A DNA stretch of 64,000 nucleotides from NCBI GenBank assembly GCA_024958715.1, contig JANWUS010000021.1, positions 62,001-126,000 of the forward strand. The letters run 5' to 3'. The DNA comes from Cyanobium sp. FGCU52. Lineage in GTDB: Bacteria > Cyanobacteriota > Cyanobacteriia > PCC-6307 > Cyanobiaceae. Positions 2,872 through 29,384 of this stretch are shown one piece after another; within the stretch, counting starts at the first letter, position 1; each line of letters begins with the position of its first letter. The notes beneath the pieces were generated by a model. It did no database searches, was not told the origin of the DNA, and worked only from the letters and a program-made list of their open reading frames with translations. Made by a program: the position numbers and the translations under genes.

Positions 2872-4179
2872 ATGAATGCCGCACTAGCCTGCCGCCATTC
2901 ACCGCATCGCTGCGCCCACTTGGCCTCTGCCCCCTACATCCCGCGCATCGCCGATGCCGAGCTGGCCGCTGCCCTGGGCGCCGCGGGCGCCGTGGTGATC
3001 GAGGGCCCCAAGGCCTGCGGCAAAACCCGCATGGCCCAGCAGCGGGCCGCGTCCACGGTGCTGCTGGATGTGGACCTGGCGGCGCGGCAGGCGCTGGCCG
3101 TGGATCCGGCGCTGGTGCTGCAGGGCCCACGGCCCCGGCTGCTGGATGAATGGCAGGTGGAGCCTCAGCTGTGGAACCAGGTGCGGCGCGCCGTGGATGC
3201 GGCGGCGGCGCCGGGTCAGTTTCTGCTCACGGGTTCGGCGGTGCCGGCGGATGACGCCGCACGGCACACGGGAGCGGGGCGCTTTTCCTTTGTGCGGCTG
3301 CGACCGATGACCCTGATCGAAGGCGGCGCAGGCCGGGGCGGGGTGTCGCTGGCGGCGCTGCTGGGCGGGGAGCCGCCCCAGTGCGCGGATCCGGGTCTGA
3401 GCGTGGCTGATCTGGCCGAGCTGGTGTGCCGCGGAGGCTGGCCGGGCCAGCGCACCAGCCCCCTGAAGGCCGCCTGCCGGGCCGCCCGCGACTACCTGGA
3501 GCAGGTGCGACAGGTGGATGTGCAGCGACTGGAACAGCACCGCCGCGATCCGCAGCGGCTGGGCGCTCTGCTGCGTGCGCTGGCCCGCAGCGTGGCCACC
3601 GAGGCATCGCTCAACACGCTGGCGGCGGATGCCGGCGGCGGCGATGGGCCCCTAGATCCGCGCACCGTGGCCCACCATCTGCAGGCGCTGGAGCGGCTCA
3701 TGGTGCTGGAGCACCAGCCGGCCTGGCGGCCCCATCTGCGCTCGAAGGCAGCGATGCGCCAGGCACCCAGGCGCCATTTCTGCGACCCCTCACTGGCGGT
3801 GGCAGCCCTGGGGGCCAGCCCCGAGCGGCTGCTGACGGAGCTGGCGTGGATGGGCCAGCTGTTCGAATCGCTGGTGATCCGCGACCTGCGTGTGCTGGCG
3901 CAGGCACTCGATGGCGAAGTGTTCCACTACCGCGACAACTACGGCGTTGAGGTGGACGCGATCGTGCAGCTGCGCGACGGCCGCTGGGGCGCGATCGAGA
4001 TCAAGCTTGGCGAAGGCCAGGTGGAAAGCGCAGCCGCGGCACTGCTGCGCTTTCAGAAGCAGCTCAACCTGGAGCGCACAGGCGCACCCGCCTTTCTGGC
4101 GGTGGTGTGCGGCAAGGGCTACGGGTATCGCCGGCCCGATGGCATCGACGTGGTGCCGGTGGGGGCGCTGGGGCTCTGA
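2872..4179 (+). CDS. AAA-like ATPase with DUF4143 domain
   Basis: This 435-residue protein belongs to the ATPase + DUF4143 family. A P-loop, GPKACGKT, lies near residues 45-52, a Walker-B-like LLDEWQ near residues 96-101, and a sensor-like LLTGSA follows. The C-terminal half holds the DUF4143 region, including FESLVIRDLRVLAQ, a nuclease-like block EVDAIVQLRDGRWGAIEIKLG and a short C-terminal strand. The D...ExK pattern there resembles restriction-endonuclease-like folds. Family role is unknown; members are common in accessory regions near TA genes. The start is uncertain by some 20 residues. A partial copy of its 3' end occurs at 9056-9103. Confidence 0.85.
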   Translation: MNAALACRHSPHRCAHLASAPYIPRIADAELAAALGAAGAVVIEGPKACGKTRMAQQRAASTVLLDVDLAARQALAVDPALVLQGPRPRLLDEWQVEPQLWNQVRRAVDAAAAPGQFLLTGSAVPADDAARHTGAGRFSFVRLRPMTLIEGGAGRGGVSLAALLGGEPPQCADPGLSVADLAELVCRGGWPGQRTSPLKAACRAARDYLEQVRQVDVQRLEQHRRDPQRLGALLRALARSVATEASLNTLAADAGGGDGPLDPRTVAHHLQALERLMVLEHQPAWRPHLRSKAAMRQAPRRHFCDPSLAVAALGASPERLLTELAWMGQLFESLVIRDLRVLAQALDGEVFHYRDNYGVEVDAIVQLRDGRWGAIEIKLGEGQVESAAAALLRFQKQLNLERTGAPAFLAVVCGKGYGYRRPDGIDVVPVGALGL

Positions 4180-4186
4180 GGGCACC

Positions 4187-4576
4187 GCGAACGGTGATCT
4201 GCTCATTCACACCTGCCCCAGCCAGCGAGGCCAGGCTCTGCTGCGAGCCCTCAGCGACGACGACACCCTGGCCATGTCGTTCATCACCTGGGCCGAGCTG
4301 TTACGCGGCGCGGAAGTCAGCCAGCGCCGGAAAGCCACCCTGCAGCAGCTGGAAGGCCTGATGCGGCTTGTGCCGGTGCTATATCCGCAGGGGCCGGGCA
4401 TCTGCCAGCACGATGCCGTTCAAGCCAACGCCTTGAAGCGCCGTGCCACGCCCATGGGCGCCAACGATCTCTGGATCGCCCGTCAGGCCCTGGCGATCGG
4501 CGCCACCTTGGTCAGCCACAACGTCGGTGAGTTCAGCCGGATCGATGGTCTGCAGCTGGTCGACTGGGCCGCCTGA
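4187..4576 (+). pseudogene. VapB'-VapC' remnant created by an internal deletion
   Basis: The frame reads NGDLLIHTCPSQRGQALLRALSDDD, which matches the middle of a VapB-type antitoxin, and then without interruption TLAMSFITWAELLRGAE, the second part of a VapC PIN domain. It continues to the usual PIN end (GANDLWIARQALAIGATLVSHN...FSRIDGLQLVDWAA). The antitoxin C-terminus and the toxin N-terminus with its first catalytic Asp (LDTN) are absent. The simplest reading is one in-frame deletion across the vapB/vapC junction. The antitoxin N-terminus is also missing. A fragment at 9104-9265 retains a slightly longer version of the antitoxin piece. Confidence 0.75.
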
Positions 4577-4828
4577 ATCGGCCAGAGGCCAGAGCCCCCG
4601 CCAGCCTTTGCCTCCACACTTGGGCCAGCGCTCGTCGACCTCATGCTGCAGCCCTTCTGAGGGTTGAGGGCTTCGGGCCCCGTTCTTCAGGTCAGATCCA
4701 CCGGGAGGTCGATGAGAAACATGGCCACTGAAAAGCCTTGAAGATCTCAGGAGATGCATGACTGGCGAGGGCCTGAGCGCAAAGCCAAGCCATCTTCTAA
4801 TTTGAAGCAGGTTTGAAGTTCATCGCAC

Positions 4829-6154
4829 TTGTCCGCCCGGCTGCCCCGCAAGCCCCCTCCTCTCCAGGAACTGCTGGAGCGCTGCGGCGGGCTGCAGGAG
4901 ACGCTGCCGATGCTCTCCTGCCTGGCCACCGCAGCGGAGGGAGATCGCTACCTGCACTGGGATGAGCTGCGTCATCGCCCCCCGCCGGAGGGGCTCAACC
5001 ATGAACAGTGGTGGCTGGCCGAGAAGCTCTCCCGCCGGCCCACCCCGCTGCCGCTGCTGGCAAGTGACGGCCAAGCCTTCTGGTTCTCGCATCCTTCGGT
5101 GCTGCTGCAGGGGCTGCATCAGATCGACCTGCAGGCCGGTGCAGGCTTCGTGGCTCCCGAGGCTGTCACCACCCGCTCCACCAGGGATCGCTATCTGTTC
5201 AGTTCGCTGATGGAGGAGGCGATCACCTCCTCGCAGATGGAAGGCGCCGCCACGACGCGGGATGTGGCCAAGACGATGATCCGCAGTCGCCGGCCGCCCC
5301 GGGACCGCTCCGAGCGGATGATCCTCAACAACTTCCTGACGATGCAGCGCATCCAGGAGCTCCAGAAGCAGCCCTTGACACCGCAGCTGGTGCTGGATCT
5401 GCACCGGCTGGTGAGCGAGGACACGCTGGATGACCCTGCCGATGCCGGCCGGCTGCGCCCAGCCGGCAAGGAAGTGGTGGTGGATGACGCCTACGGCACC
5501 GTGTTCCATGTGCCACCACCGGCTGAGGAATTGCCTGAGCGACTGGAGGCGCTCTGCCGCTTTGCCAATGGCGAGACCCCGAAGGTGTTCATCCACCCGG
5601 TGGTGCGGGCCATTGCGCTGCACTTCTGGCTGGCCTACGACCATCCCTTCTGCGATGGCAACGGCCGAACCGCCCGGGCACTCTTCTACTGGGCGGTGCT
5701 GCATCAGGGCTACTGGCTGTTCGAGTTCGTCTCGATTTCCTCGGTGATCAACAGGGCCAGGGGGCAGTACGAGCGCTCGTTCCTGCTCAGTGAGAGCGAC
5801 GACAACGACCTCACCTATTTCCTGCTGGCCCAGGTGAAGGTGATCCAGCAGGCCATCGCCAATCTGCATGCCTATCTGGAACGCAAGGCCGGTGAGGTGG
5901 GGGCTGTGCAGCAGCGGCTGGAGGGGATGGACGGGCTGAACCACCGCCAACTGGCCCTGCTGCGCCATGCCCTTCGGCATTCCGGCTTCCGCTACACGGT
6001 GCTCTCCCACCAGAACAGCCATGGGGTGAGTCATCAGACCGCCCGCAGCGACCTGCAGAAGCTGGCAGCCCGTGGGTTGCTGCTTCCCGGTAAGGATGGA
6101 CGGCGAGACATCTTCAAGGTGCCTGAGGATCTCTCGGCACGGCTGCCGGGCTGA
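4829..6154 (+). CDS. Fic family protein (predicted AMP transferase) with internal inhibitory helix
   Basis: This 441-residue protein has a complete Fic active-site motif, HPFCDGNGRTAR, at residues 272-283, and the upstream flap segment DDAYGTVFHVPPP. A class II-type inhibitory motif (S/T)xxxE(G/N) is present as S134-SQM-E138-G139, which normally blocks ATP binding and keeps the enzyme self-inhibited. The N-terminal half is the Fic_N-type domain and the C-terminus has a winged-helix-like segment (SHQTARSDLQKLAARGLL). The start is a TTG at 4829; the next ATG is at residue 28. It sits among TA genes but has no separate antitoxin gene. Likely activity is AMPylation of a protein target that I cannot identify. 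Confidence 0.88.
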   Translation: MSARLPRKPPPLQELLERCGGLQETLPMLSCLATAAEGDRYLHWDELRHRPPPEGLNHEQWWLAEKLSRRPTPLPLLASDGQAFWFSHPSVLLQGLHQIDLQAGAGFVAPEAVTTRSTRDRYLFSSLMEEAITSSQMEGAATTRDVAKTMIRSRRPPRDRSERMILNNFLTMQRIQELQKQPLTPQLVLDLHRLVSEDTLDDPADAGRLRPAGKEVVVDDAYGTVFHVPPPAEELPERLEALCRFANGETPKVFIHPVVRAIALHFWLAYDHPFCDGNGRTARALFYWAVLHQGYWLFEFVSISSVINRARGQYERSFLLSESDDNDLTYFLLAQVKVIQQAIANLHAYLERKAGEVGAVQQRLEGMDGLNHRQLALLRHALRHSGFRYTVLSHQNSHGVSHQTARSDLQKLAARGLLLPGKDGRRDIFKVPEDLSARLPG

Positions 6155-6248
6155 TCTGTCCGGCGACGATGAGATAGGCGCCCGCCTGCGTCGTTGCCGG
6201 ACACGGTGGGGACGATCGTGGGGCTGATGGCCGGTGGCAGCTGCCGCC

Positions 6249-6656
6249 TCAGCCGCCACGGTGAGCCATGGGCAGCAGCTGCACACCCACCCCGGTGGAG
6301 AAGCGCTGGTCAAAGCTCAGCACCGGCAGCGCCCCCGCCCGGGAAGCACGGGCCAGGATCAGGTGATCCGCCAGGTCGCCGCCCTGGCGGAAGTGCTCCA
6401 ACGCATCAATCACCGCATCGATGTCATCCACCACAACGCCACGGGTACGCACCAGTTTCTCGAGAAGCTGAAAACGGCAAGGGCGCTCCAGCTCATATCC
6501 CAGCAGCACCCAGGCCACCTCCGCGAGCACCACGTCCGGCAGATACACGCCACCTGTGGCGATGGCATCGAGGAAAGCCCGTTCGGCGATCGGCGTCTGC
6601 TGCGGGTCGTCGCCGATCAGCAGCCGCACCGCCACGTTGGTGTCAAGGGTCCTCAT
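6249..6656 (-). CDS. vapC: VapC family PIN-domain ribonuclease toxin
   Basis: This 135-residue PIN protein starts MRTLDTNVAVRLLIGDD with the catalytic Asp at residue 5. It continues through LPDVVLAEVAWVLLG (conserved Glu) and a C-terminal DLADHLILARASRAGALPVLSFDQRF with the remaining acidic residues, so the active site looks complete. Its ATG overlaps the 3' end of the AbrB-type antitoxin gene by 14 bases, the usual coupling. The ATG at 6656 is preferred to 6674 because of that overlap and the family start. A broken second copy of the same gene lies at 9315-9469. Confidence 0.88.
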   Translation of the reverse strand: MRTLDTNVAVRLLIGDDPQQTPIAERAFLDAIATGGVYLPDVVLAEVAWVLLGYELERPCRFQLLEKLVRTRGVVVDDIDAVIDALEHFRQGGDLADHLILARASRAGALPVLSFDQRFSTGVGVQLLPMAHRGG

Positions 6657-6888
6657 GGCCAACGGCGGAGGCAATGGCGTGCTCCATGTCCTCCCGGCTC
6701 ATCGTCCGCCGCACGGCTGGCCGATTACGGAACAGGTCTTCGGGCTCGTATCTCGCGGGCACAAGCACAAGCCGACCCTGCGGGTCAGTGCTTGCCTGCA
6801 GCCTGGTGCCAGGCGCCAGACCCAGGGCATGGCGCAGCCGCCTGGGAATCGTGAGCTGACCCTTGGAGCTGAGCGTGACAATTTCTAT
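6643..6888 (-). CDS. vapB: AbrB/SpoVT-type antitoxin, non-standard start
   Basis: The frame encodes VTLSSKGQLTIPRRLRHALGLAPGTRL, the swapped-hairpin AbrB DNA-binding fold, then a toxin-binding tail (YEPEDLFRNRPAVRRTMSREDME). No ATG, GTG or TTG lies in frame between the coding core and an upstream in-frame TAA. The codon aligned with the ATG of the paralogue at 9693 is ATA (6888-6886), followed by ATT at 6882. Either a rare AUA/AUU start is used or the start has been lost. The gene is otherwise intact and overlaps vapC. A palindrome just upstream is the probable autoregulatory operator. Confidence 0.75.
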   Translation of the reverse strand: MEIVTLSSKGQLTIPRRLRHALGLAPGTRLQASTDPQGRLVLVPARYEPEDLFRNRPAVRRTMSREDMEHAIASAVGHEDP

Positions 6889-6897
6889 CCGGCGATT

Positions 6898-6916
6898 GTA
6901 AGGCGACTCGCCTTAC
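6898..6916. promoter_or_regulatory. Palindromic operator candidate for the AbrB/VapC locus
   Basis: GTAAGGCGA-C-TCGCCTTAC is a perfect 9-bp inverted repeat around one base, 9 bases upstream of the likely antitoxin start, in the 111-bp gap to the divergent phd gene. The paralogous locus at 9703-9721 keeps the same element with one mismatch, which supports selection or recent common origin. VapB antitoxins of this class usually bind such sites to repress their own operon; here it could also affect the divergent phd-vapC pair. Confidence 0.6.
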
Positions 6917-6999
6917 ACAACGACCTCAAACGGCCGGAACCTCCTCCTGTTGGTCCACAAGCGGACTAATCTCAGGGGTGCTCGGCCCGTTCCTGCGCC

Positions 7000-7263
7000 A
7001 TGGACATCCCCTCCCCTCGAACCGTGAACGTGCACGAGGCCAAGACGCACTTCTCCCGCCTGATCGATGCCGCCCATGCGGGCGAAACGATCGTGGTCGC
7101 CAAAGGCGGGCGGCCTTGGGCGCGGCTGATGCCGCTTGAGCAGCCCATGCCCCAGCGACAGCCGGGCGTCCTGGCCGGCCGCATCCCCTTGCCGCCGCCC
7201 AAGGCGCTGCTGGAGCCGCTACCGGAGGAGGAACTCGCCGCGTTGGAGCAGCCCCTGCCGTGA
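7000..7263 (+). CDS. Phd/YefM family antitoxin
   Basis: This 87-residue protein has the Phd/YefM signature at residues 7-35: VNVHEAKTHFSRLIDAAHAGE followed by IVVAKGGRPWARL. The N-terminal domain binds DNA and dimerises; the C-terminal part (PPPKALLEPLPEEELAALEQPLP) should occupy the toxin groove. The ATG at 7000 fits the family start. The stop overlaps the GTG of the next gene, so the two form one operon. Confidence 0.88.
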   Translation: MDIPSPRTVNVHEAKTHFSRLIDAAHAGETIVVAKGGRPWARLMPLEQPMPQRQPGVLAGRIPLPPPKALLEPLPEEELAALEQPLP

Positions 7264-7652
7264 GAGCGGAGTATCTGCTCGACACTCACGCCCTGCTCTG
7301 GTGGCTGGCCGAACCTGATCGCCTCTCAGAGGCAGCCTATGCCGCCATGGCCGATCCCACCGCTCGTGTCGTCGTGAGTGCAGCCTCCGGCTGGGAGATC
7401 GCCACCAAGGTGCGCCTGGGCAAACTGCCTGCCGCGGTTGAGCTGCTCACCGGTCTACCGGAGCTGCTGGCAAGCCAGGGCTTCGAGCTGCTGCCGATTC
7501 AGTTGCAGCACGGCCTGCGCGCCGGCGGCTACCCGATGGCGCACCGGGATCCTTTCGATCGCCTGCTTGCCGCCCAGGCGGAACTGTCCAACCTCACCCT
7601 GGTGAGCCTGGATCCAGCGCTGCAACCCTTCCCCTGCCAGGTGCTCTGGTAG
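7260..7652 (+). CDS. VapC-like PIN-domain toxin, partner of Phd
   Basis: This 130-residue PIN protein starts at a GTG that overlaps the antitoxin stop. It contains EYLLDTHALLWWLAEPDRLS, the DTHxLLWW subgroup that pairs with Phd-type antitoxins, then SAASGWEIATKVRLGKL and the C-terminal MAHRDPFDRLLAAQAELSNLTLVSLD with the conserved acidic residues. All expected catalytic positions are present, so the module looks functional. The predicted activity is cleavage of tRNA or other RNA when free of antitoxin. Confidence 0.88.
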   Translation: MRAEYLLDTHALLWWLAEPDRLSEAAYAAMADPTARVVVSAASGWEIATKVRLGKLPAAVELLTGLPELLASQGFELLPIQLQHGLRAGGYPMAHRDPFDRLLAAQAELSNLTLVSLDPALQPFPCQVLW

Positions 7653-7764
7653 CAGCTGCGATCTGAAGCAGATGTCAACCTTCTGCAGGTGGCCGCACCG
7701 GTGGGCTTCCCCCTGCTTTCAGGGCTGCGATCAGGGCTTCTGAAAGGACCTGATCACTCGCTGA

Positions 7765-8091
7765 TCAGAAGCTCGAGCTGCGTGCCAGAAGCACTGGCAA
7801 CTGCTCGCTGAGGGTGATCCAAACCTCCTCGAGGTCCACCCGGTCGTAAGCGTGGATCAGGACATCCCGCATCCCGGCCATGTCACGCCAGGGGATCTGG
7901 GGATGTTTCTGGCGACAGCTGTCGCTGAGCCGCTTCGTGGCTTCACCAATGATCTCGAGATTGCGTACCACAGCGTCTTGGAGAACCTCGCTGAACAGGA
8001 ACGTCTCGCGATCGGGGACGGCAAAGCCCTCAACCCGGCGGATGGCCGTCAGGATGTCGGCGAGGGCATCACGGTCCCTTGGCTCCATCAC
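7765..8091 (-). CDS. hepT: HepT-like HEPN-domain toxin
   Basis: This 108-residue all-helical protein of the HepT family has the HEPN ribonuclease motif RxxxxHxY at R75-DVLI-H80-A-Y82. Its start ATG overlaps the stop of the nucleotidyltransferase gene upstream, the standard mntA-hepT order. HEPN toxins of this type are RNases that are silenced when the MNT partner AMPylates the motif tyrosine. All key residues are present. Confidence 0.9.
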   Translation of the reverse strand: MMEPRDRDALADILTAIRRVEGFAVPDRETFLFSEVLQDAVVRNLEIIGEATKRLSDSCRQKHPQIPWRDMAGMRDVLIHAYDRVDLEEVWITLSEQLPVLLARSSSF

Positions 8092-8381
8092 AGGGGAATC
8101 GCATCCCGTTCAGCAGAGGCCAGAACTGTTGGCTTGAGGTTGCGCCGGCGAATCAGGTCAACGCGGCAGTGCAGGGTGTCCTCCAGGGCCAGCTTCAGGG
8201 CAATGCGCTCCAGAAGGCCGGTGTGGGGGGGCAGGTCCACGAGGAGATCAAGATCGCTGTCGGGCCCGGCCTGATCACGGACCACGGACCCAAACGCCGC
8301 CAGATTGGTGGCGCCGTGTGCGGCAGCGATGGCCTTGATCTTTGGAGCCTGAGCCAGCAGGTCGATGAGACGCATGGCCAC
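8088..8381 (-). CDS. mntA: MntA-type nucleotidyltransferase antitoxin
   Basis: This 97-residue minimal nucleotidyltransferase has the GSxVR...SDxDLxV signature: G31-S32, then SDLDLLVDL with acidic residues at about 43 and 45. The third acidic position is probably in CRVDLI. This family AMPylates and inactivates the HepT toxin encoded immediately downstream with a 4-base overlap. The start could be 8381 or the second Met at 8375. Confidence 0.9.
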   Translation of the reverse strand: MAMRLIDLLAQAPKIKAIAAAHGATNLAAFGSVVRDQAGPDSDLDLLVDLPPHTGLLERIALKLALEDTLHCRVDLIRRRNLKPTVLASAERDAIPL

Positions 8382-8520
8382 CCAAAAACCATCTGAACTC
8401 TAGGAGCTGCGGCTGAGCTCAGCATGTCGCCTGGTTTCATGACCAGGAACGGCGGCGGCCCTGGGCGCCAGCCCCGAGCGGCGGCTGGCTGATCGGGCCA
8501 CATCGAAGCGTGGTGCCAGC

Positions 8521-8583
8521 TCAGCCGGCGTCGATCTCGCGCTGCAGGCTCTCCCAGCCATGGCGCACGAAAGGCGGGCTCAT
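8521..8583 (-). pseudogene. 20-codon stub, possibly a truncated toxin
   Basis: An ATG overlapping the stop of the AbrB-like gene (ATGA arrangement) opens a frame of only 20 residues, MSPPFVRHGWESLQREIDAG, before a TGA. The tight coupling is what would be expected of a toxin gene behind an antitoxin, so I read this as the 5' remnant of one. No homologous continuation is clear in other frames. It could instead be a real small protein; confidence is low. Confidence 0.35.
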
Positions 8584-8927
8584 GCCCCCGTTGCCTCCTC
8601 ACCGAAATCGACGGTGACCCCGGCGAGCAGGTCGTCGTCCTCGGCGGCCATCGCCTCGGTGTAAGGCACAGGGCCGTCATCGGCCGTGAGCGCCTGGCGG
8701 CTGAGGAAATCGAGGAAGAGCCCGAGCATCAGGCTGTCGTCCTCAGCCTCACCCTCCGACTGTGCAGGCGGCTCCATCCGCAGCAGCAAGGTGGTGTCGT
8801 TCAAGACCTCCACATGGCCAGCGGCGCTGGCGAACTGGGGGTGATCACGGTAAAAGGCGGCCGGCAACCGCAAACCAGAGGAGTTGCCGATCCGGGCCGG
8901 CGTGACGCGGTAAGGGACGGCAGTCAT
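8580..8927 (-). CDS. AbrB-like antitoxin (orphan)
   Basis: This 115-residue protein starts MTAVPYRVTPARIGNSSGLRLPAAFYRDHP, a SpoVT/AbrB-like fold in which GNSSGLRLP is the usual loop-strand. It continues through a second hairpin (AGHVEVLNDTTLLLRM) and a long acidic tail that would bind a toxin. It lies in the TA region and ends in an ATGA overlap with a 20-codon stub, so it appears to have lost its partner. Confidence 0.65.
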   Translation of the reverse strand: MTAVPYRVTPARIGNSSGLRLPAAFYRDHPQFASAAGHVEVLNDTTLLLRMEPPAQSEGEAEDDSLMLGLFLDFLSRQALTADDGPVPYTEAMAAEDDDLLAGVTVDFGEEATGA

Positions 8928-9055
8928 GGCAGGCGTGCCAGCAAGGCCGGACTTACGTTTCGTGAGTCCTCAGCCTAGGGGCGATCCCCGCGTCTGTCGA
9001 AGGTACGCACCACGGCTTCTTCGGCGGTGCCAGGAGCGACCCCCATAGCTCTGTG

Positions 9056-9265
9056 CGGCCCGATGGCATCGCCGTGGTGCCGGTGGGGGCGCTGGGGCTC
9101 TGAGGGCAGCGCGGGGGAGCGCGTGAGTGCAGATCAGCCGCACCCCGAACGGTGATCTGCTCATTCACCCCTGCCCCAGCCAGGACGGCCAGGCTCTGCT
9201 GCAAGCACTCAGCGGCATTGACCCCGACGTTGTGGACGCTGTGGAGCAGCAACAGGCCGACTGCA
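9056..9265 (+). pseudogene. Copy of DUF4143 gene 3' end plus VapB fragment
   Basis: Bases 9056-9103 repeat, almost base for base, the 3' end of the DUF4143 ATPase gene at about 4133-4180 (RPDGIAVVPVGALGL then TGA). After about 25 extra bases, the frame at 9127 gives MQISRTPNGDLLIHPCPSQDGQALLQALSGIDPDVVDAVEQQQAD, which corresponds to the VapB fragment at 4187-4255 but extends further at both ends. The similarity stops near 9265, where fragments of the minus-strand vapC begin. It is a decayed partial duplicate of the 4.1-4.3 kb locus. Confidence 0.7.
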
Positions 9266-9314
9266 GGGCAGGGGTGATCGGCGGGAAGGTCTCGATCGTG
9301 CTGCTGTCACTGAC

Positions 9315-9469
9315 CGCAGAACCCAGGCCACCTCAGCGATCACCGCATCGGGGATGACCACGCCACCCGCGGCGATGGCATCGTGGAAGGCCCGTTCAGC
9401 GATCGGCGTCCGCTGCGGGTCGTCGCCGATCAGAAGCCGCACCACCCTGCTGGTGTCAAGGGTCCTCAT
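9315..9469 (-). pseudogene. Truncated second copy of vapC (6249-6656)
   Basis: From the ATG at 9469 the frame reads MRTLDTSRVVRLLIGDDPQ, TPIAERAFHDAIAAGG and PDAVIAEVAWVL, closely matching the first 51 residues of the intact vapC. The conserved Asn after the catalytic Asp is changed to Ser. Homology ends near 9315 and the rest is unrelated sequence. Toxin activity is not expected. Confidence 0.8.
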
Positions 9470-9693
9470 GGCCAACGGCGGAGGCAATGGCGCGCTCCAT
9501 ATTCTCGAGGCTCAGCGTTCGCCGGACTGCCGGCCGATCACAGTAAAGATCCTCGGGCTCGTCTTTCGCGGGCACAGCATCAGCCGGCCCTGCAGGTCAA
9601 TGCTCGCCTGCAGCCTGGAGCCAGGCCCAGGGCATCACGCAGCTGCCTGGGAATGGTGAGCTGACCCTTGGGGCGGAGCGTGACGGCGTCCAT
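9456..9693 (-). pseudogene. Frameshifted second copy of the AbrB-type antitoxin
   Basis: The copy starts with a proper ATG (MDAVTLRPKGQLTIPRQLRDALGLAPG) and ends with the same overlap into vapC as the intact locus. Relative to 6643-6888 it has a 7-base deletion after the LGLAPG codons and a further single-base deletion downstream (CTTGTGCTTGTGCCC against CTGATGCTGTGCCC), so it cannot encode the full antitoxin. Its ATG shows what the start of the intact paralogue probably was. Confidence 0.8.
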
Positions 9694-9846: not shown

Positions 9847-9920
<74 letters not shown>

Positions 9921-10071: not shown

Positions 10072-11025
10072 TTACCCATAAGCCTCCGCTACCCTGAGAC
10101 TCCTTGCCGTGCAAGGCTTGCAGCAGCAGACGGCGTTAGCGATTCGCTCCGTTATCTCCGCCAGCGAGAAGCGCCGGTTGAAGCGGAAGCAGTGGCCGCC
10201 GAGGTACCGCCTGGCGTACTTGTCAAAGTTGAAGGCGTGGAAAGTGCCGTTGAGGCTGGTCTTGAGGTTGCCAAGCACCGTGTTGATCCAGCGAAACTGA
10301 GGAACATCTTTGGGGTGCCTGCCACCGGTGACGATGACCTCGTGGCTGCAACCTGCCGCGGTGACCGAGCGAAAGCAGGCCAGGCCATCAGAGAGAACGG
10401 CGCTGCCGGGAGCCAGGTGATCCCTGGCCCAGGTGGCGATCGCCTCGGAACTGAAGCCAGCCACCGGAGTGATTTTGGCGTGGACCGGGCGACCTGCCTC
10501 GTTCACTGAAACGGCTGCGACAATGGGTATCTTGTTCTCCGATCCGCGACCTGCCTTGCCACCCGGGCGTTCTCCGCCGAGATATGCATCATCGATCTGG
10601 ATCTTTCCCCGCAGCACGTAGGCATCATCCCGATCGCTCATGGCCCTCAGAATCTTGTTGTGAAGTAGCCAGGCCGTGTCATAGTTCACTCCCAGATGGC
10701 GGCTAAGCTCTAAAGACGAAATGCCGGTTTTGGCCTGCCCGATCAAATAGAAGGCCTGAAACCAAGTGGTGAGGGGCAACTTGGTGGCCTGCATGATCGT
10801 GCCGGCCGTAAGAGTGGCCTGATGGCCACAGGTGCGGCACCGATAACGCTTGAGCCGTCGCCCATAAACGAGTCCATGCTCATGGCCATCGCAGCGTGGG
10901 CAGCGGAACCCATCTGGCCAGCGAGCCTTCTCCAACGCAGCCTCACAGTGCTCCTCAGTGCCATAGAGGCGCAGGAACTGGCGCAGTGAGAGGCCTTTCT
11001 GGAACTGGATCGCGCTGCGGGCCAT
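10072..11025 (-). CDS. IS1595-family transposase
   Basis: This 317-residue transposase has an N-terminal zinc ribbon (CPRCDGHEHGLVYGRRLKRYRCRTCG, four Cys) preceded by a helical DNA-binding part (RQFLRLYGTEEHCEAALEKARWPDGFRC). A DDE/DDN-type catalytic domain follows: QIDDAYLGGERPGGKAGRGSENK, LSDGLACFRSV and a final block near FRWINTVLGNLKTSLNGTFHAF. The length and order match the IS1595 group. No frameshift is seen, so it may be active. The start ATG at 11025 lies 5 bases downstream (in the sense of transcription) of a strong hairpin. Confidence 0.92.
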   Translation of the reverse strand: MARSAIQFQKGLSLRQFLRLYGTEEHCEAALEKARWPDGFRCPRCDGHEHGLVYGRRLKRYRCRTCGHQATLTAGTIMQATKLPLTTWFQAFYLIGQAKTGISSLELSRHLGVNYDTAWLLHNKILRAMSDRDDAYVLRGKIQIDDAYLGGERPGGKAGRGSENKIPIVAAVSVNEAGRPVHAKITPVAGFSSEAIATWARDHLAPGSAVLSDGLACFRSVTAAGCSHEVIVTGGRHPKDVPQFRWINTVLGNLKTSLNGTFHAFNFDKYARRYLGGHCFRFNRRFSLAEITERIANAVCCCKPCTARSLRVAEAYG

Positions 11026-11030
11026 GACTT

Positions 11031-11052
11031 GACTGGTATCTGTGTACCAGTC
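11031..11052 (-). promoter_or_regulatory. Hairpin immediately upstream of the transposase start
   Basis: GACTGGTA and TACCAGTC form perfect 8-bp arms around a 6-base loop, ending 5 bases before the transposase ATG. It occupies the place of a ribosome binding site. Transposase mRNAs often carry such structures to block translation from read-through transcripts; that role is inferred here. Confidence 0.45.
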
Positions 11053-11116
11053 TACGGCTGCGTCTGCCCGTGCGCGGAGCGAGCTGGGTAATCAAGTAGA
11101 GCTTTACAGACTCTCC

Positions 11117-11794
11117 ATGTCCCTGCGCATCCTCAAGACCGCGAGCACTGCCGCCCTGATGGGCGCAGGCCTCACTGTGGCCCTAGCCTCTCCCAGTCAC
11201 GCCGCCGTTTCATGTAACCCCCTTGGGTCGGCTATGTTTGGCGCCGGCTACACCTGCTTAGCCGGCGACAAGCTCTACTCAGAGTTCACTATTATTGAGG
11301 ACCCGGGTAACCGGCTGTTTGACGGCTCATATACAATTGCTGACAACGACCCCAGCCACTCGCTGACTGGTAGCGGATCCTTCAGCACAGGTACCTACTC
11401 ATTTAGCTATAGGATGCAGGTCGTTGGACCAAATGCAATCAACCGCGAATTTGGTTCCATTTCTACCAGTGGCTCTTCTTCGGCTATTCCTGGCCCGAAC
11501 ACTTTCTCCAAGACCCTCTCAGCTGAATCTGCCGGGCCCGTCACCACTGGCCCCGCGACAGCTTTCTTCCCTGGTGGACCCAACCCAAGCCCCCTTGCCA
11601 CCTTCTCTCCTGGCGTCAAGGACGCTATCTTCACCTCCACACTCACCGTGACAGGCGGGGTGGCGCAGGTCTTTACGGACGACATTACCCAAACGCAGCT
11701 TGACAAAACCCCCGGGCCTCTCTCTATTCTTGGCGCTGGAGCTGCCTTCGGTTTCTCTCGGAAGATGCGCCGTAGGATCAAGCAAGCGGCTTGA
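11117..11794 (+). CDS. Secreted protein with CTERM-like sorting tail
   Basis: This 225-residue protein starts MSLRILKTASTAALMGAGLTVALASPSHA, a clear Sec signal peptide with cleavage after ASPSHA. The mature part is rich in Gly, Ser, Thr and Asn with beta-strand patterns. It ends TPGPLSILGAGAAFGFSRKMRRRIKQAA: a PGP motif, a hydrophobic stretch and a basic tail, the tripartite form of PEP-CTERM-type sorting signals in a variant seen in cyanobacteria. GC content and codon use are lower than in the core genes. No exosortase gene is in the window. The longer frame from 11042 runs through the IS end and is not used. Confidence 0.75.
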   Translation: MSLRILKTASTAALMGAGLTVALASPSHAAVSCNPLGSAMFGAGYTCLAGDKLYSEFTIIEDPGNRLFDGSYTIADNDPSHSLTGSGSFSTGTYSFSYRMQVVGPNAINREFGSISTSGSSSAIPGPNTFSKTLSAESAGPVTTGPATAFFPGGPNPSPLATFSPGVKDAIFTSTLTVTGGVAQVFTDDITQTQLDKTPGPLSILGAGAAFGFSRKMRRRIKQAA

Positions 11795-11954: not shown

Positions 11955-12692
11955 ATGCCCCCTGAAGATTCTTCCATTGCTTTAAGCAGGCTGAAGTCAA
12001 TGGAAAGCAGCACAGCCCAGGCTGTGTTCATCGGTGGAATTGTGTTAATAGCCACCTTTGCCAACACCCTGGTCTTTTCTTCATTTCCCCTGCAACTGCT
12101 CCGTCCCGACTGGCAGTTGCGAATGGCTGGCACCTTTCTCTCTTTTGGCGCCACCGCGCTGATCGGTGTGCTTATGGTTGCCATCTCCGAACGTGGCCTC
12201 AGTTACCGGGCCAGTTCCATGGCTACTCAGGCAAGGTTGATTCGCAAATTGGCGGTTTGGGCCGCTATCGGTTACATCATCCTTATCCCTGCTCAGGTCA
12301 CAGCTGGGTTTAGGTTTCTCGGCGAGAGGGCTGAGGCCGAGAAACAGCCAATCGTCCTGTGGAGACAATTACGCGGTCGCATCCAGGCCACGGAGACGGA
12401 AGCCCAGTTGCGTGAACTCCTTGGTCGCCTGCCCGAGCTTCCACCCCTTCCCGAGAAGTTTGATCTCCCCTTGGCCAAGGTGAAGGAGGAGTTGATCAGT
12501 TATACCGATTCGAAATTCGCAGCTCGTGACACCCAACTAGAAAAAGCTCGCTCTGAGCGCCTGCAGAACTTTCTGATTGAAGCCATTCGCAACAGCATTC
12601 AATCCTTGCTCCTTGCCGCAGGATTTTCTGCCGTTGCTAAGCGGGGGACGCCTTTAGACGGGCCGGGCCTATTCAACAACCTCATCCCCTGA
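11955..12692 (+). CDS. Membrane protein, possibly HpsJ-like
   Basis: This 245-residue protein has three or more predicted membrane helices in the first half: AVFIGGIVLIATFANTLVF, then LSFGATALIGVLMVAI, then LAVWAAIGYIILIPAQVTAG. A soluble charged segment with coiled-coil character follows (ATETEAQLRELLGRLPELPPLPEK and later). A last hydrophobic stretch is at ARNSIQSLLLAAGFSAV. The block FPLQLLRPDWQLRMAGTFL resembles HpsJ-type proteins linked with cyanobacterial exosortase or polysaccharide-secretion loci, but this is an impression only. Standing beside a CTERM-like substrate makes that link worth testing. Confidence 0.6.
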   Translation: MPPEDSSIALSRLKSMESSTAQAVFIGGIVLIATFANTLVFSSFPLQLLRPDWQLRMAGTFLSFGATALIGVLMVAISERGLSYRASSMATQARLIRKLAVWAAIGYIILIPAQVTAGFRFLGERAEAEKQPIVLWRQLRGRIQATETEAQLRELLGRLPELPPLPEKFDLPLAKVKEELISYTDSKFAARDTQLEKARSERLQNFLIEAIRNSIQSLLLAAGFSAVAKRGTPLDGPGLFNNLIP

Positions 12693-12750: not shown

Positions 12751-13045
12751 GGAAGGGAGGCGAGGTGATCGCGGACGGTGTGCTCCATCCCCATCGGGGG
12801 GGCAACCGGCTGAGGAAAGTCCGGGCTCCCCAAGGATCAGGCCTGCCGCATAACGCCCGGTGCGGGCGACCGTGAGGACAGCGCCTCAGAAACGCACCGC
12901 CGATGGCCGTCCGGCCTTGCCCGGCGGCAGAGCCAAGGGTGCGGTAAGGGCGCACCAGCGGCATCGAGAGGTGCCGGCTCGGTAAACCGCGGCCGGGAGC
13001 AAGGCCAGGGCTAGCGGTTGGGCGCTTTCCCGATCCCTTCCCCCT
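12751..13045 (+). pseudogene. Truncated second copy of RNase P RNA
   Basis: This stretch follows the complete rnpB at 13534-13973 through the 5' two thirds: GGCGAGGTGATCGCG near the start, then the conserved TGAGGAAAGTCCGGGCTCCC, the TAACGCCCGGTGCGGGCGACCGTGAGGACAG region, and GCACCAGCGGCATCGAGAGG / TGCCGGCTCGGTAAACC. It stops after about 295 bases. The 3' third, with the ACAGAACCCGGCTTAC block and the 3' strand of helix P1, is missing. The near-universal GCCACAGAAA is changed to GCCTCAGAAA, and the variable helices differ, so it is not a recent exact copy. Not expected to be catalytic. Confidence 0.85.
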
Positions 13046-13066
13046 TGGACCTCCATCCCGGAACAA

Positions 13067-13311
13067 GCCTACCAACCTGGCGTTGCCATGGCCCCCTGAG
13101 AGCAGCTGGAACAGCTGAAAAGCGAGGCCAGCCGTATGGGCATCAGCCTGAACTTGCTTGTTCAGCAACGACTGACTGGGGATTCCCCGCAGCCCCGCCG
13201 GCCCCATGGCGATCTCGATGCGCTGGCCGGTTCTTGGTCTGCCGAGGAAGCCGAGGCCTTCACTATCGCGATCGCCCCCTCGAGCAAGTGGACCCGGATC
13301 CCTGGGTCTGA
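13067..13311 (+). pseudogene. Decayed VapB-type antitoxin
   Basis: The segment encodes pieces of an antitoxin: PTNLALPWPPE in one frame, then after a shift near 13097 EQLEQLKSEASRMGISLNLLVQQRLTG and DLDALAGSWSAEEAEAFTIAIAP. A missing base near 13281 shifts the frame; with it restored the tail would read FEQVDPDPWV and stop at the TGA at 13309-13311, directly before a vapC start. At least two frameshifts mean no full protein is made. Confidence 0.7.
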
Positions 13312-13314
13312 TCC

Positions 13315-13449
13315 ATGCGCCCCATCGCCCTTGACACCAACACCGTCGAGAGCCCACGGATGTCCACCGACACCGCCGATGCCGATGCCCACGTCCTTCA
13401 GGTGGAAGGCCTGCGGGTGATCCGCAGCTGGCAGGAGGCTCTGCCCTGA
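13315..13449 (+). pseudogene. Internally deleted VapC (44 codons)
   Basis: The frame begins MRPIALDTNT, the standard PIN start with its first catalytic Asp, and ends DAHVLQVEGLRVIRSWQEALP, which resembles a PIN C-terminus. About 90 residues between them are missing. It follows the decayed antitoxin by 3 bases, in the usual vapBC order. Toxin activity is not expected. Confidence 0.65.
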
Positions 13450-13533
13450 GTCCGCTCGCCGGCCAGTCCATCGGATCCAACCTGGCCGTCGCTGAAGCCA
13501 GGCGCAAACCGCGCAGCGGCTAATCTCCTCTGA

Positions 13534-13973
13534 GGAAAGCAGGCGAGGTGATCGCGATCGGAGCGGCGGCGGTCTTCGGGCCGTCCGCCGGGTCCGGTTG
13601 AGGAAAGTCCGGGCTCCCCAATGGCCAGGCCTGCCGGGTAACGCCCGGTGCGGGCGACCGTGAGGACAGTGCCACAGAAACACACCGCCGATGGCCCCGT
13701 GGGAGGTTCGCCTCGCCCGGTGCACAGGCAAGGGTGCAAGGGTGCGGTAAGAGCGCACCAGCGGCATCGAGAGGTGCCGGCTCGGTAAACCCCGGCCGGG
13801 AGCAAGGCCCAGGGACAACGGTTGGCCATCTTCCCCGTCCCGTTTCAAGCGAGCCGCTCGAGGCCGCCGGTAACGGCGGTCCCAGACAGATGATCACCCC
13901 CCGCTTCCGCCCCGCGCCCAACGGCCCGGCCGGCGGCAGCGGGGAACAGAACCCGGCTTACGTCCTGCTTTCC
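13534..13973 (+). ncRNA. rnpB: RNase P RNA (complete, bacterial A type)
   Basis: About 440 bases contain all conserved blocks in order: TGAGGAAAGTCCGGGCTCCC, GAGGACAGTGCCACAGAAA, GGTGCGGTAAGAGCGCACCAGCG, GAGAGGTGCCGGCTCGGTAAACCCC, CAGACAGATGATCACC and AACAGAACCCGGCTTACG. The ends pair perfectly as helix P1: GGAAAGCAGG (13534-13543) with CCTGCTTTCC (13964-13973). The RNA is the catalytic part of RNase P, which trims the 5' ends of tRNAs. The start codon of rnc follows only 4 bases after P1. Confidence 0.95.
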
Positions 13974-13977
13974 CCCC

Positions 13978-14691
13978 ATGGACACCGCCCGCCGCCAGCA
14001 GCTCATCGCCCTTCTTCAGGGCCTCGGCGTCGATCCCCCGGCTGAGCTGAACCCGATCGATGAGGCCCTCACCCACACCTCCGCCGGCCTGGCCCGCGAT
14101 CACGAACGGCTCGAATTCCTCGGCGATGCGGTGCTGCGCCTGGCGGCCGCCGAGTTCCTCGAGCGCGAGCATCCCCAGCTGGGCGTGGGCCGCCGCTCAG
14201 CCCTGCGCGCCCAGCTGGTGAGCGACCGCTGGCTGGCGGAACTGGCCGAAACCTGCGCTCTCGAACCCGCCCTGAGGATCGGGGCCATCGCCGGCGGCGA
14301 CCGGGCCGGCCGCGCCACTCTGCGGGCGGAATGCGCCGAGGCCCTCGTGGGTGGCCTCTACGAAGCCTGGGGCGGCGGTTCCGCCGGCCTGGCCGCCGTG
14401 CACACCTGGCTCACGCCCCACTGGCGCCGGGCCGCCAGCGAACTGCTCGCCGATCCCCACCGCCACAACTGGAAGACAGCCCTGCAGGAATGGAGCCAGG
14501 GCCAGGGGCTGGGCCTGCCCTCCTACCGCTGCGAGGAACGCAGCCGCAGCCACGGCGATCCCCGCCGCTTCCAGTGCCAGGTGCACGTGGGGCCGCTGGC
14601 GGGCGAAGGCTGGGGTGGCTCGCGCCGGGAGGCCGAGCAGCAGGCGGCCCGCGCCGCCCTGGGGCAGCTCAGGCCGCCTGCAGGGTGCTGA
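13978..14691 (+). CDS. rnc: Ribonuclease III
   Basis: This 237-residue protein cleaves double-stranded RNA in rRNA maturation and RNA turnover. The signature HERLEFLGDAVL lies at residues 42-53 with catalytic E46 and D50; the later acidic block is AECAEALVGGLYE near residues 119-131. The dsRNA-binding domain follows from about residue 160 (NWKTALQEWSQGQGLGLPSY ... GWGGSRREAEQQAARAAL). The start ATG sits directly behind the rnpB 3' end and no Shine-Dalgarno sequence is visible, so expression probably depends on the rnpB transcript. Its 3' end overlaps the opposing ndhS by 23 bases. Confidence 0.95.
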   Translation: MDTARRQQLIALLQGLGVDPPAELNPIDEALTHTSAGLARDHERLEFLGDAVLRLAAAEFLEREHPQLGVGRRSALRAQLVSDRWLAELAETCALEPALRIGAIAGGDRAGRATLRAECAEALVGGLYEAWGGGSAGLAAVHTWLTPHWRRAASELLADPHRHNWKTALQEWSQGQGLGLPSYRCEERSRSHGDPRRFQCQVHVGPLAGEGWGGSRREAEQQAARAALGQLRPPAGC

Positions 14692-27797: not shown

Positions 27798-29354
<1,557 letters not shown>

Positions 29355-29384
29355 CATGCAACCTAGCAAGAGAGGCCCGGCCGC

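Follow-up and report, generated by a model that had tools for sequence, protein, structure and literature searches.

Likely replacement of the RNase P RNA gene by a foreign copy, beside a decaying stump, in Cyanobium sp. FGCU52

The RNase P RNA gene, rnpB, is essential and normally present in a single copy. In the stretch of DNA considered here (the window; 64,000 nucleotides of contig JANWUS010000021.1 of Cyanobium sp. FGCU52), a 3'-truncated second copy precedes a complete one, with the remains of a toxin-antitoxin (TA) pair between them. Which of the two is the resident gene, and how did the other come to lie beside it? The common order in many genomes of the genus is tRNA-Arg, often two genes here called genes 5 and 4, then rnpB and rnc. 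Two genomes recur in what follows, namely G030, which alone of the 41 other genus genomes searched is a close sister, and G038, the MAG Cyanobium sp. CZS25K. The features of the locus are as follows.

9847-9920, minus strand: tRNA-Arg(CCT), which in many relatives marks the region upstream of rnpB
10072-11025: IS1595-type transposase gene, between tRNA-Arg and gene 5
11955-12692, plus strand: gene 4, the resident upstream gene, without Pfam match, directly ahead of rnpB in several relatives
12749 to about 13012, plus strand: rnpB stump (5' two-thirds), assigned from its RF00010 match, its clade with G030 and its changed invariant columns
13010-13020, plus strand: left junction, from resident-type AAGGCCAGGGCT to AGCGGTTGGGCG, placed by eye from the alignment and like the stump of G038; the exact base is approximate
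13013-13099, plus strand: linker common to G038, one frame agreeing at 79% of 28 aa and sharing its stop
13100-13311, plus strand: decayed vapB, weakly FitA-like ribbon-helix-helix; start lost and frame shifted near the end
13315-13449, plus strand: decayed vapC (PIN type in relatives); the first ~10 codons fused to the last codons, the middle missing
13521-13526, plus strand: presumed -10 element of the complete rnpB, TAATCT, by eye; a similar segment lies ahead of the complete gene of G038
13536-13975, plus strand: complete class A RNase P RNA gene (Rfam RF00010, 196.5 bits, E 4.4e-62)
13978-14691, plus strand: rnc (RNase III), resident, 86% identical to that of G030

The complete gene matches the class A covariance model end to end (positions 1-367 of 367), above the gathering score, and stands before rnc as in relatives. 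The first copy is matched at 12813-12999 (+) with 82.7 bits and E 2.4e-25 over model positions 44-222 of 367, a partial match below the gathering score of 100; it is derived from rnpB and is not a working member of RNase P RNA class A. The repeat that it forms begins at about 12749 (31 nt from 12748, 84%). A preliminary description, made from the letters alone, had reported these two copies, the first cut at its 3' side and 0.5 kb ahead of the complete gene, and had named a covariance-model search as the check on the first; that search recovered both. The same description had noted a change in a near-universal block of the first copy and differences in the variable helices, and these are likewise borne out, the block CACAGAAA reading CTCAGAAA in the stump through an A>T at 12886, and helices P3 and P12 being unlike. 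No other rnpB match occurs in the genome at E <= 0.001. The copies lie head to tail, 783-803 nt apart, and share 77% identity over 303 aligned columns. Because they are so diverged, lie on one contig and recur in the same arrangement in a second genome, they are not an assembly duplicate. Since the assembly is 99.93% complete and has no other full-length copy, the complete gene is predicted to process the tRNA precursors of the cell; a promoter scan ahead of it found no promoter-like site. With the 3' strand of P1 and everything past P16 gone, the stump cannot, going by the established structure, work as RNase P RNA.

Of 176 columns without variation in 41 other sequences, the stump differs at 17, where leaving out each of those sequences in turn gives at most 3 such departures and a median of 0. 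Eight of the 17 cluster at a single small deletion (12923-12933), where they are due in part to the local alignment; the remaining nine, the A>T among them, are scattered. The first copy looks like a pseudogene, the decayed 5' part of what appears to be the resident rnpB.

The identity of the resident lineage is given by rnc, whose tree (41 rows, being the window and 40 of 43 loci, with matches longer than 100 aa) joins the window to G030 (support 100/98, starred), at the 86% identity noted above; the 39 others of that search do not exceed 69.9%. For rnpB, 46 sequences were collected. The whole-gene tree of 41 rows leaves out G021, G010 and G007 (cut) along with the two stumps, the 5' tree of 42 rows leaves out G021, the stump of G038, G085 and G058 (the motif not being found in the last two), and the 3' tree of 42 rows leaves out G007, G010 and both stumps. 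Bootstrap values had not settled in these three trees or in the tree without P3 and P12, the 5' tree gives the stump a very long branch, and some tests were named after the tree had been seen.

In the 5' tree of 42 rows the stump and G030 form a clade (98/95, starred), which persists without P3 and P12 (95/85, starred). Searched against the DNA of the 41 other genus genomes, the stump region scores highest with the rnpB of G030 (295 bits; next, 269), and the stump holds two of the four states private to G030 among 41 sequences, of which the complete gene by definition has none. Outside P3 and P12, eight signature columns favour G030, four of them in one motif, with three against and two undecided. 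By plain identity over all aligned columns G030 ranks fifth of 45 (78.5%; top, 78.9%), and it ranks first, at 93%, once P3 and P12 are removed. Gene 4 is followed by the stump after about 60 nt, and by the rnpB of G030 after 63 nt. On these comparisons the stump looks like the 5' part of the resident gene, and the complete gene like a newcomer.

The complete gene behaves differently from the stump. Its union with G030 is rejected for the 5' part (p-AU 0.002; 0.020 without P3 and P12) and for the 3' part (0.017), and not rejected for the whole rnpB (0.24), such that the conflict of gene tree with resident flanks that defines xenologous displacement is found in both parts and not in the whole-gene test. 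Its plain identity to G030 is 84.6% (rank 33 of 43), with 13 others at 90% or above. In two trees its smallest clade comprises G029 and G015 (with G007), at 88/92 and 90/85, unstarred, and rnc rejects a grouping of the window with G029, G015 and G021 (p-AU 0.0001). The disagreement of rnpB with rnc is not general, since some other sister groups of the rnc tree (G029/G015, G019/G039b/G005 and G026/G040) recur in the whole-rnpB tree. The rnpB of G030 is itself a long branch, joining G027, G024 and G037 (98/96, starred); rnc does not place G030 there (at weak forks), and so this gene may have a separate history. The complete rnpB of the window is probably of foreign origin.

The TA remains that the preliminary description placed between the copies are confirmed as vapB and vapC when set beside G038 and the open vapBC pairs that relatives carry. 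The vapC remnant is an open frame of 44 aa built from the two ends of the gene. The VapC of a relative matches PIN well, and the VapB of G038 scores 20.5 bits against FitA-like_RHH, under the curated cut-off of 27. A VapBC system consists of an open antitoxin gene followed by an open PIN toxin gene, and the window holds only the remains of one. The linker could derive from the end of a protein gene severed at the junction; a 29-aa query of it in 42 genomes gave small E-values in the window's own genome (G000) and G038 alone, the best other being 0.024. These remains and the linker are all that is recognised in the 0.5-kb insert. An integrative element at an RNA gene would be marked by an integrase gene and att repeats, and the repeats considered for the latter are the rnpB copies themselves. 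No integrase or transposase was recognised there in the list of open reading frames or by Pfam on one frame, so that the earlier proposal of integration by a mobile element gains no support. As to the terminal inverted repeats and target duplication of a transposon, no repeats bounding the insert were seen in 9-15 kb among the families listed (20 of 23 for direct repeats, 25 of 29 for inverted ones), a survey that decayed ends could escape.

The same arrangement is found in G038, where contig JAUCZB010000018.1 carries gene 5, gene 4, a stump, the linker, vapB, a vapC piece, a complete rnpB and rnc. Here vapB is open (81 aa; 8485-8730 of locus L093), and vapC is likewise a piece. Stretches of 214, 70 and 38 bp in the insert DNA are 90%, 90% and 84% identical between the two genomes; the RNase III proteins are 61-64% identical, and the DNA spanning most of rnc 80% (799 bp). 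Given some 90% identity in the insert despite so distant an RNase III, the stump-vapBC-rnpB arrangement has probably moved horizontally. The stump of G038 is shorter than that of the window, lacking a further internal segment, for which a later deletion is the simplest reading since the break lies at GCCCAG, a repeat within rnpB (by eye). The complete rnpB of G038 likewise disagrees with its rnc, its 3' part grouping with G025 (100/96, starred) in a pairing that rnc rejects (p-AU 0.004, a test named once the tree had been seen).

Elsewhere the unit is scarce. More than 45 bases of the linker occur in two of 400 family genomes, the window's and G038, both at rnpB, with two candidates scored per genome. 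Linker plus vapB DNA is matched at E <= 0.001 in 22 of the 400, and beyond these two genomes the matches are vapB-like at 67-74% (G178, G263, G297, G032 and G237) or pieces of at most 67 bases; pieces at the linker position (G035, G013, G012 and G149) reach at most 43 bases. The vapBC pairs of G178 and G263 (L141 and L142) were set aside as instances of the same unit, their neighbours being genes other than rnpB. A 20-mer of the linker gave 0 stretches in viral_contigs and two in genome_contigs, where the window's own record may be excluded; these are the record of G038 and a Lachnospiraceae MAG, the latter taken as chance.

A search with 100 bases of rnpB, counted by eye with the top two candidates scored and with 48 no-match genomes not listed, gave two matches in G000, G038, G039, G243, G328 and G331 among the 400 genomes. 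Of these, G243 and G331 have one covariance match each and G328 two partial ones. Within the genus, G007, G021, G035, G039 and G038 give extra rnpB DNA matches. In G007 the gene is divided between two contigs, in G021 a single gene is broken, and in G035 the match spans 42 bases (E 8e-4); G039 has two genes, and the match in G038 is the stump. Four genomes (G001, G011, G017 and G034) gave no rnpB, and the region is probably missing from their assemblies, as an rnc match is absent as well. The sole rnpB match of G021, a 99% complete genome (L094, contig C28, 5357-5641), lacks about 148 nt of its middle (positions 84-231 of the window's gene), from either a real break or an assembly fault. In G010 (L095, contig C123, 5161-5520) the 3' part is shortened and joined to the end of the gene, and rnc matches lie on two contigs. 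G039, an assembly 73% complete with 2% contamination, has two complete and different rnpB genes on two contigs (C21, 11239-11654; C30, 8667-9077), representing either contamination or a true second gene.

In a phage collection rnpB matches occur in four of 50,697 records. The two examined further, L189 and L190, score as complete and may be stretches of bacterial DNA that entered phage records. Under the name 'Microcystis phage MaAM05', L189 (MW495066.1, 113322-117518) includes a complete but unannotated RNase P RNA gene of 251.8 bits among bacterial-type genes and is perhaps a mislabelled bacterial contig. Plasmid matches number 26 in 72,556 records, all 60-80% identical, and among the 20 listed, 19 records are of at least 350 kb. 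Among the titles and abstract openings listed from the open-licence literature, none reports a bacterium with a displaced rnpB and its stump. The 'two rnpB' of PMC12390103 are plasmid terminators, and PMC2996960 is Bcheck.

The tests support a mosaic of G030-like and non-G030-like segments, its arrangement in a second genome, and the decay of both the stump and vapBC. We consider it likely, and well short of certain, that these are the marks of a xenologous replacement in which a foreign rnpB arrived with vapBC and left the 5' part of the old gene as a decaying stump. The ancestor would have had a single rnpB after gene 4, of the type still present in G030. Donor DNA from another lineage of the genus, its structure modelled on G038 as a 5'-partial rnpB, linker, vapBC, and promoter with complete rnpB, would then have recombined at the resident gene. 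The left exchange would lie inside the resident rnpB near P15/P16, at about 13010-13020, with the right one falling in the interval that separates the 3' part of rnpB from rnc, given that the former is not G030-like and the latter is, so that the resident rnc was kept. Homologous recombination with such an allele is the probable means, as non-resident DNA is flanked by resident-like DNA, with its left end in rnpB-like sequence and its right end between rnpB and rnc. The resident gene would thereby have been reduced to its 5' two-thirds, the cell living on the newcomer while the stump and the TA pair decayed; that vapBC helped to fix the replacement is speculative. No candidate donor carrying an open vapBC-rnpB unit turned up. 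Of the origin first proposed, a mobile element bringing its own partial rnpB, the arrival of foreign DNA at rnpB survives and the roles of the copies are reversed, as the partial copy looks resident and the complete gene foreign.

Displacement of a resident gene in place by the version of a relative is known in bacteria, and the locus resembles it in its resident flanks and replacement in place. It differs in having an essential catalytic RNA gene as its target and in retaining the 5' part of the displaced gene. Compared with an ordinary class A rnpB, the locus has an extra, 3'-truncated copy ahead, and its complete gene is seemingly of another lineage than its neighbours. Open VapBC pairs, with a PIN toxin and a ribbon-helix-helix antitoxin, exist in the family, whereas here remnants of both genes stand decayed between two rnpB copies. 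Gene fragments are also left behind by islands integrating into tRNA and tmRNA genes, and the fragment of a structural RNA gene adjoining a complete one recalls them; here, however, the fragment is 5', no integrase is recognised, and the complete gene is resident-like in neither tested part.

The main rival, though an unlikely one, is that a mobile unit of vapBC and a whole rnpB inserted into the resident gene near P15-P17, by site-directed means or transposition, and itself supplied the replacement. Both genomes would share the left break near P15-P17 if the shorter stump of G038 arose by deletion between the GCCCAG repeats, and the upstream stretch is rich in TA-type genes, with tRNA-Arg and the IS1595-type transposase gene. 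Against this stand the insert without recognised integrase or transposase and the confinement of the longer linker to two family genomes, at rnpB in each, with two candidates scored per genome; moreover, the donor-type segment begins within rnpB-like sequence, as homologous exchange explains.

Slightly less probable again is an old tandem duplication in the window's own lineage, with vapBC inserted between the copies and the first then decaying, such that its likeness to G030 is only apparent. The head-to-tail spacing fits this, the pairing of the stump with G030 could be long-branch attraction, and plain identity does not single out G030. The duplication first put forward as an alternative is nonetheless disfavoured, as a clade of the stump and the complete gene tests poorly (p-AU 0.014; 0.031 without P3 and P12), two of the four states private to G030 occur in the stump and, by definition, none in the complete gene, and the 90% insert identity with G038 is left unexplained. 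A still more doubtful reading is that vapBC and the complete rnpB form a selfish replacement cassette, which enters by homology, destroys the resident rnpB, supplies the ribozyme and adds an addiction pair; were this true, loss of the cassette would be lethal twice over, and stumps at rnpB would be its scars.

That the stump is a working RNA under selection, a decoy or regulator derived from RNase P RNA, is very improbable. It retains its 82.7 bits and folds more stably than dinucleotide shuffles (z -3.1), but any rnpB remnant would be expected to do the latter. Its changes at invariant columns, its missing P1 3' strand, the hexamer TGCTGT where many relatives have TA---T (by eye), and the further internal segment absent from the stump of G038 all speak against a function. 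An assembly or contamination artefact is scarcely credible, for although the genome is a draft of 87 contigs and some relatives have a cut or broken rnpB, the copies are well diverged on one long contig and the linker recurs in another assembly.

Under the favoured reading of xenologous replacement, the exchange of a ribozyme gene is apparently readable directly, with stump, junctions, newcomer and resident flank within about 2 kb and a second genome alike. This makes testable the pairing of a foreign RNase P RNA with a resident protein, and the role of a toxin-antitoxin pair as driver of essential-gene replacement. It also cautions that rnpB alone is unsafe for phylogeny in this genus.

Several minor observations concern the surroundings. 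Gene 5 (11042-11794) is 69% identical to that of G038 and 45% to that of G030, and being nearer to the former it may also have been exchanged; gene 4, which separates it from the stump, has its closest counterpart in G030 (44%). The stretch 2872-9487, ahead of tRNA-Arg(CCT), looks like an island of TA- and defence-like genes, including a DUF4143/AAA gene (PADLOC PDC-S01) and a reading frame at 4829-6154 that we take to be Fic-like. Its TA-type genes comprise a PIN gene (7260-7652), a HepT-like gene with a nucleotidyltransferase (7765-8381; PDC-S09) and a weak PIN remnant (9209-9487). Farther downstream, a TPP riboswitch lies at 29240-29357 on the minus strand.
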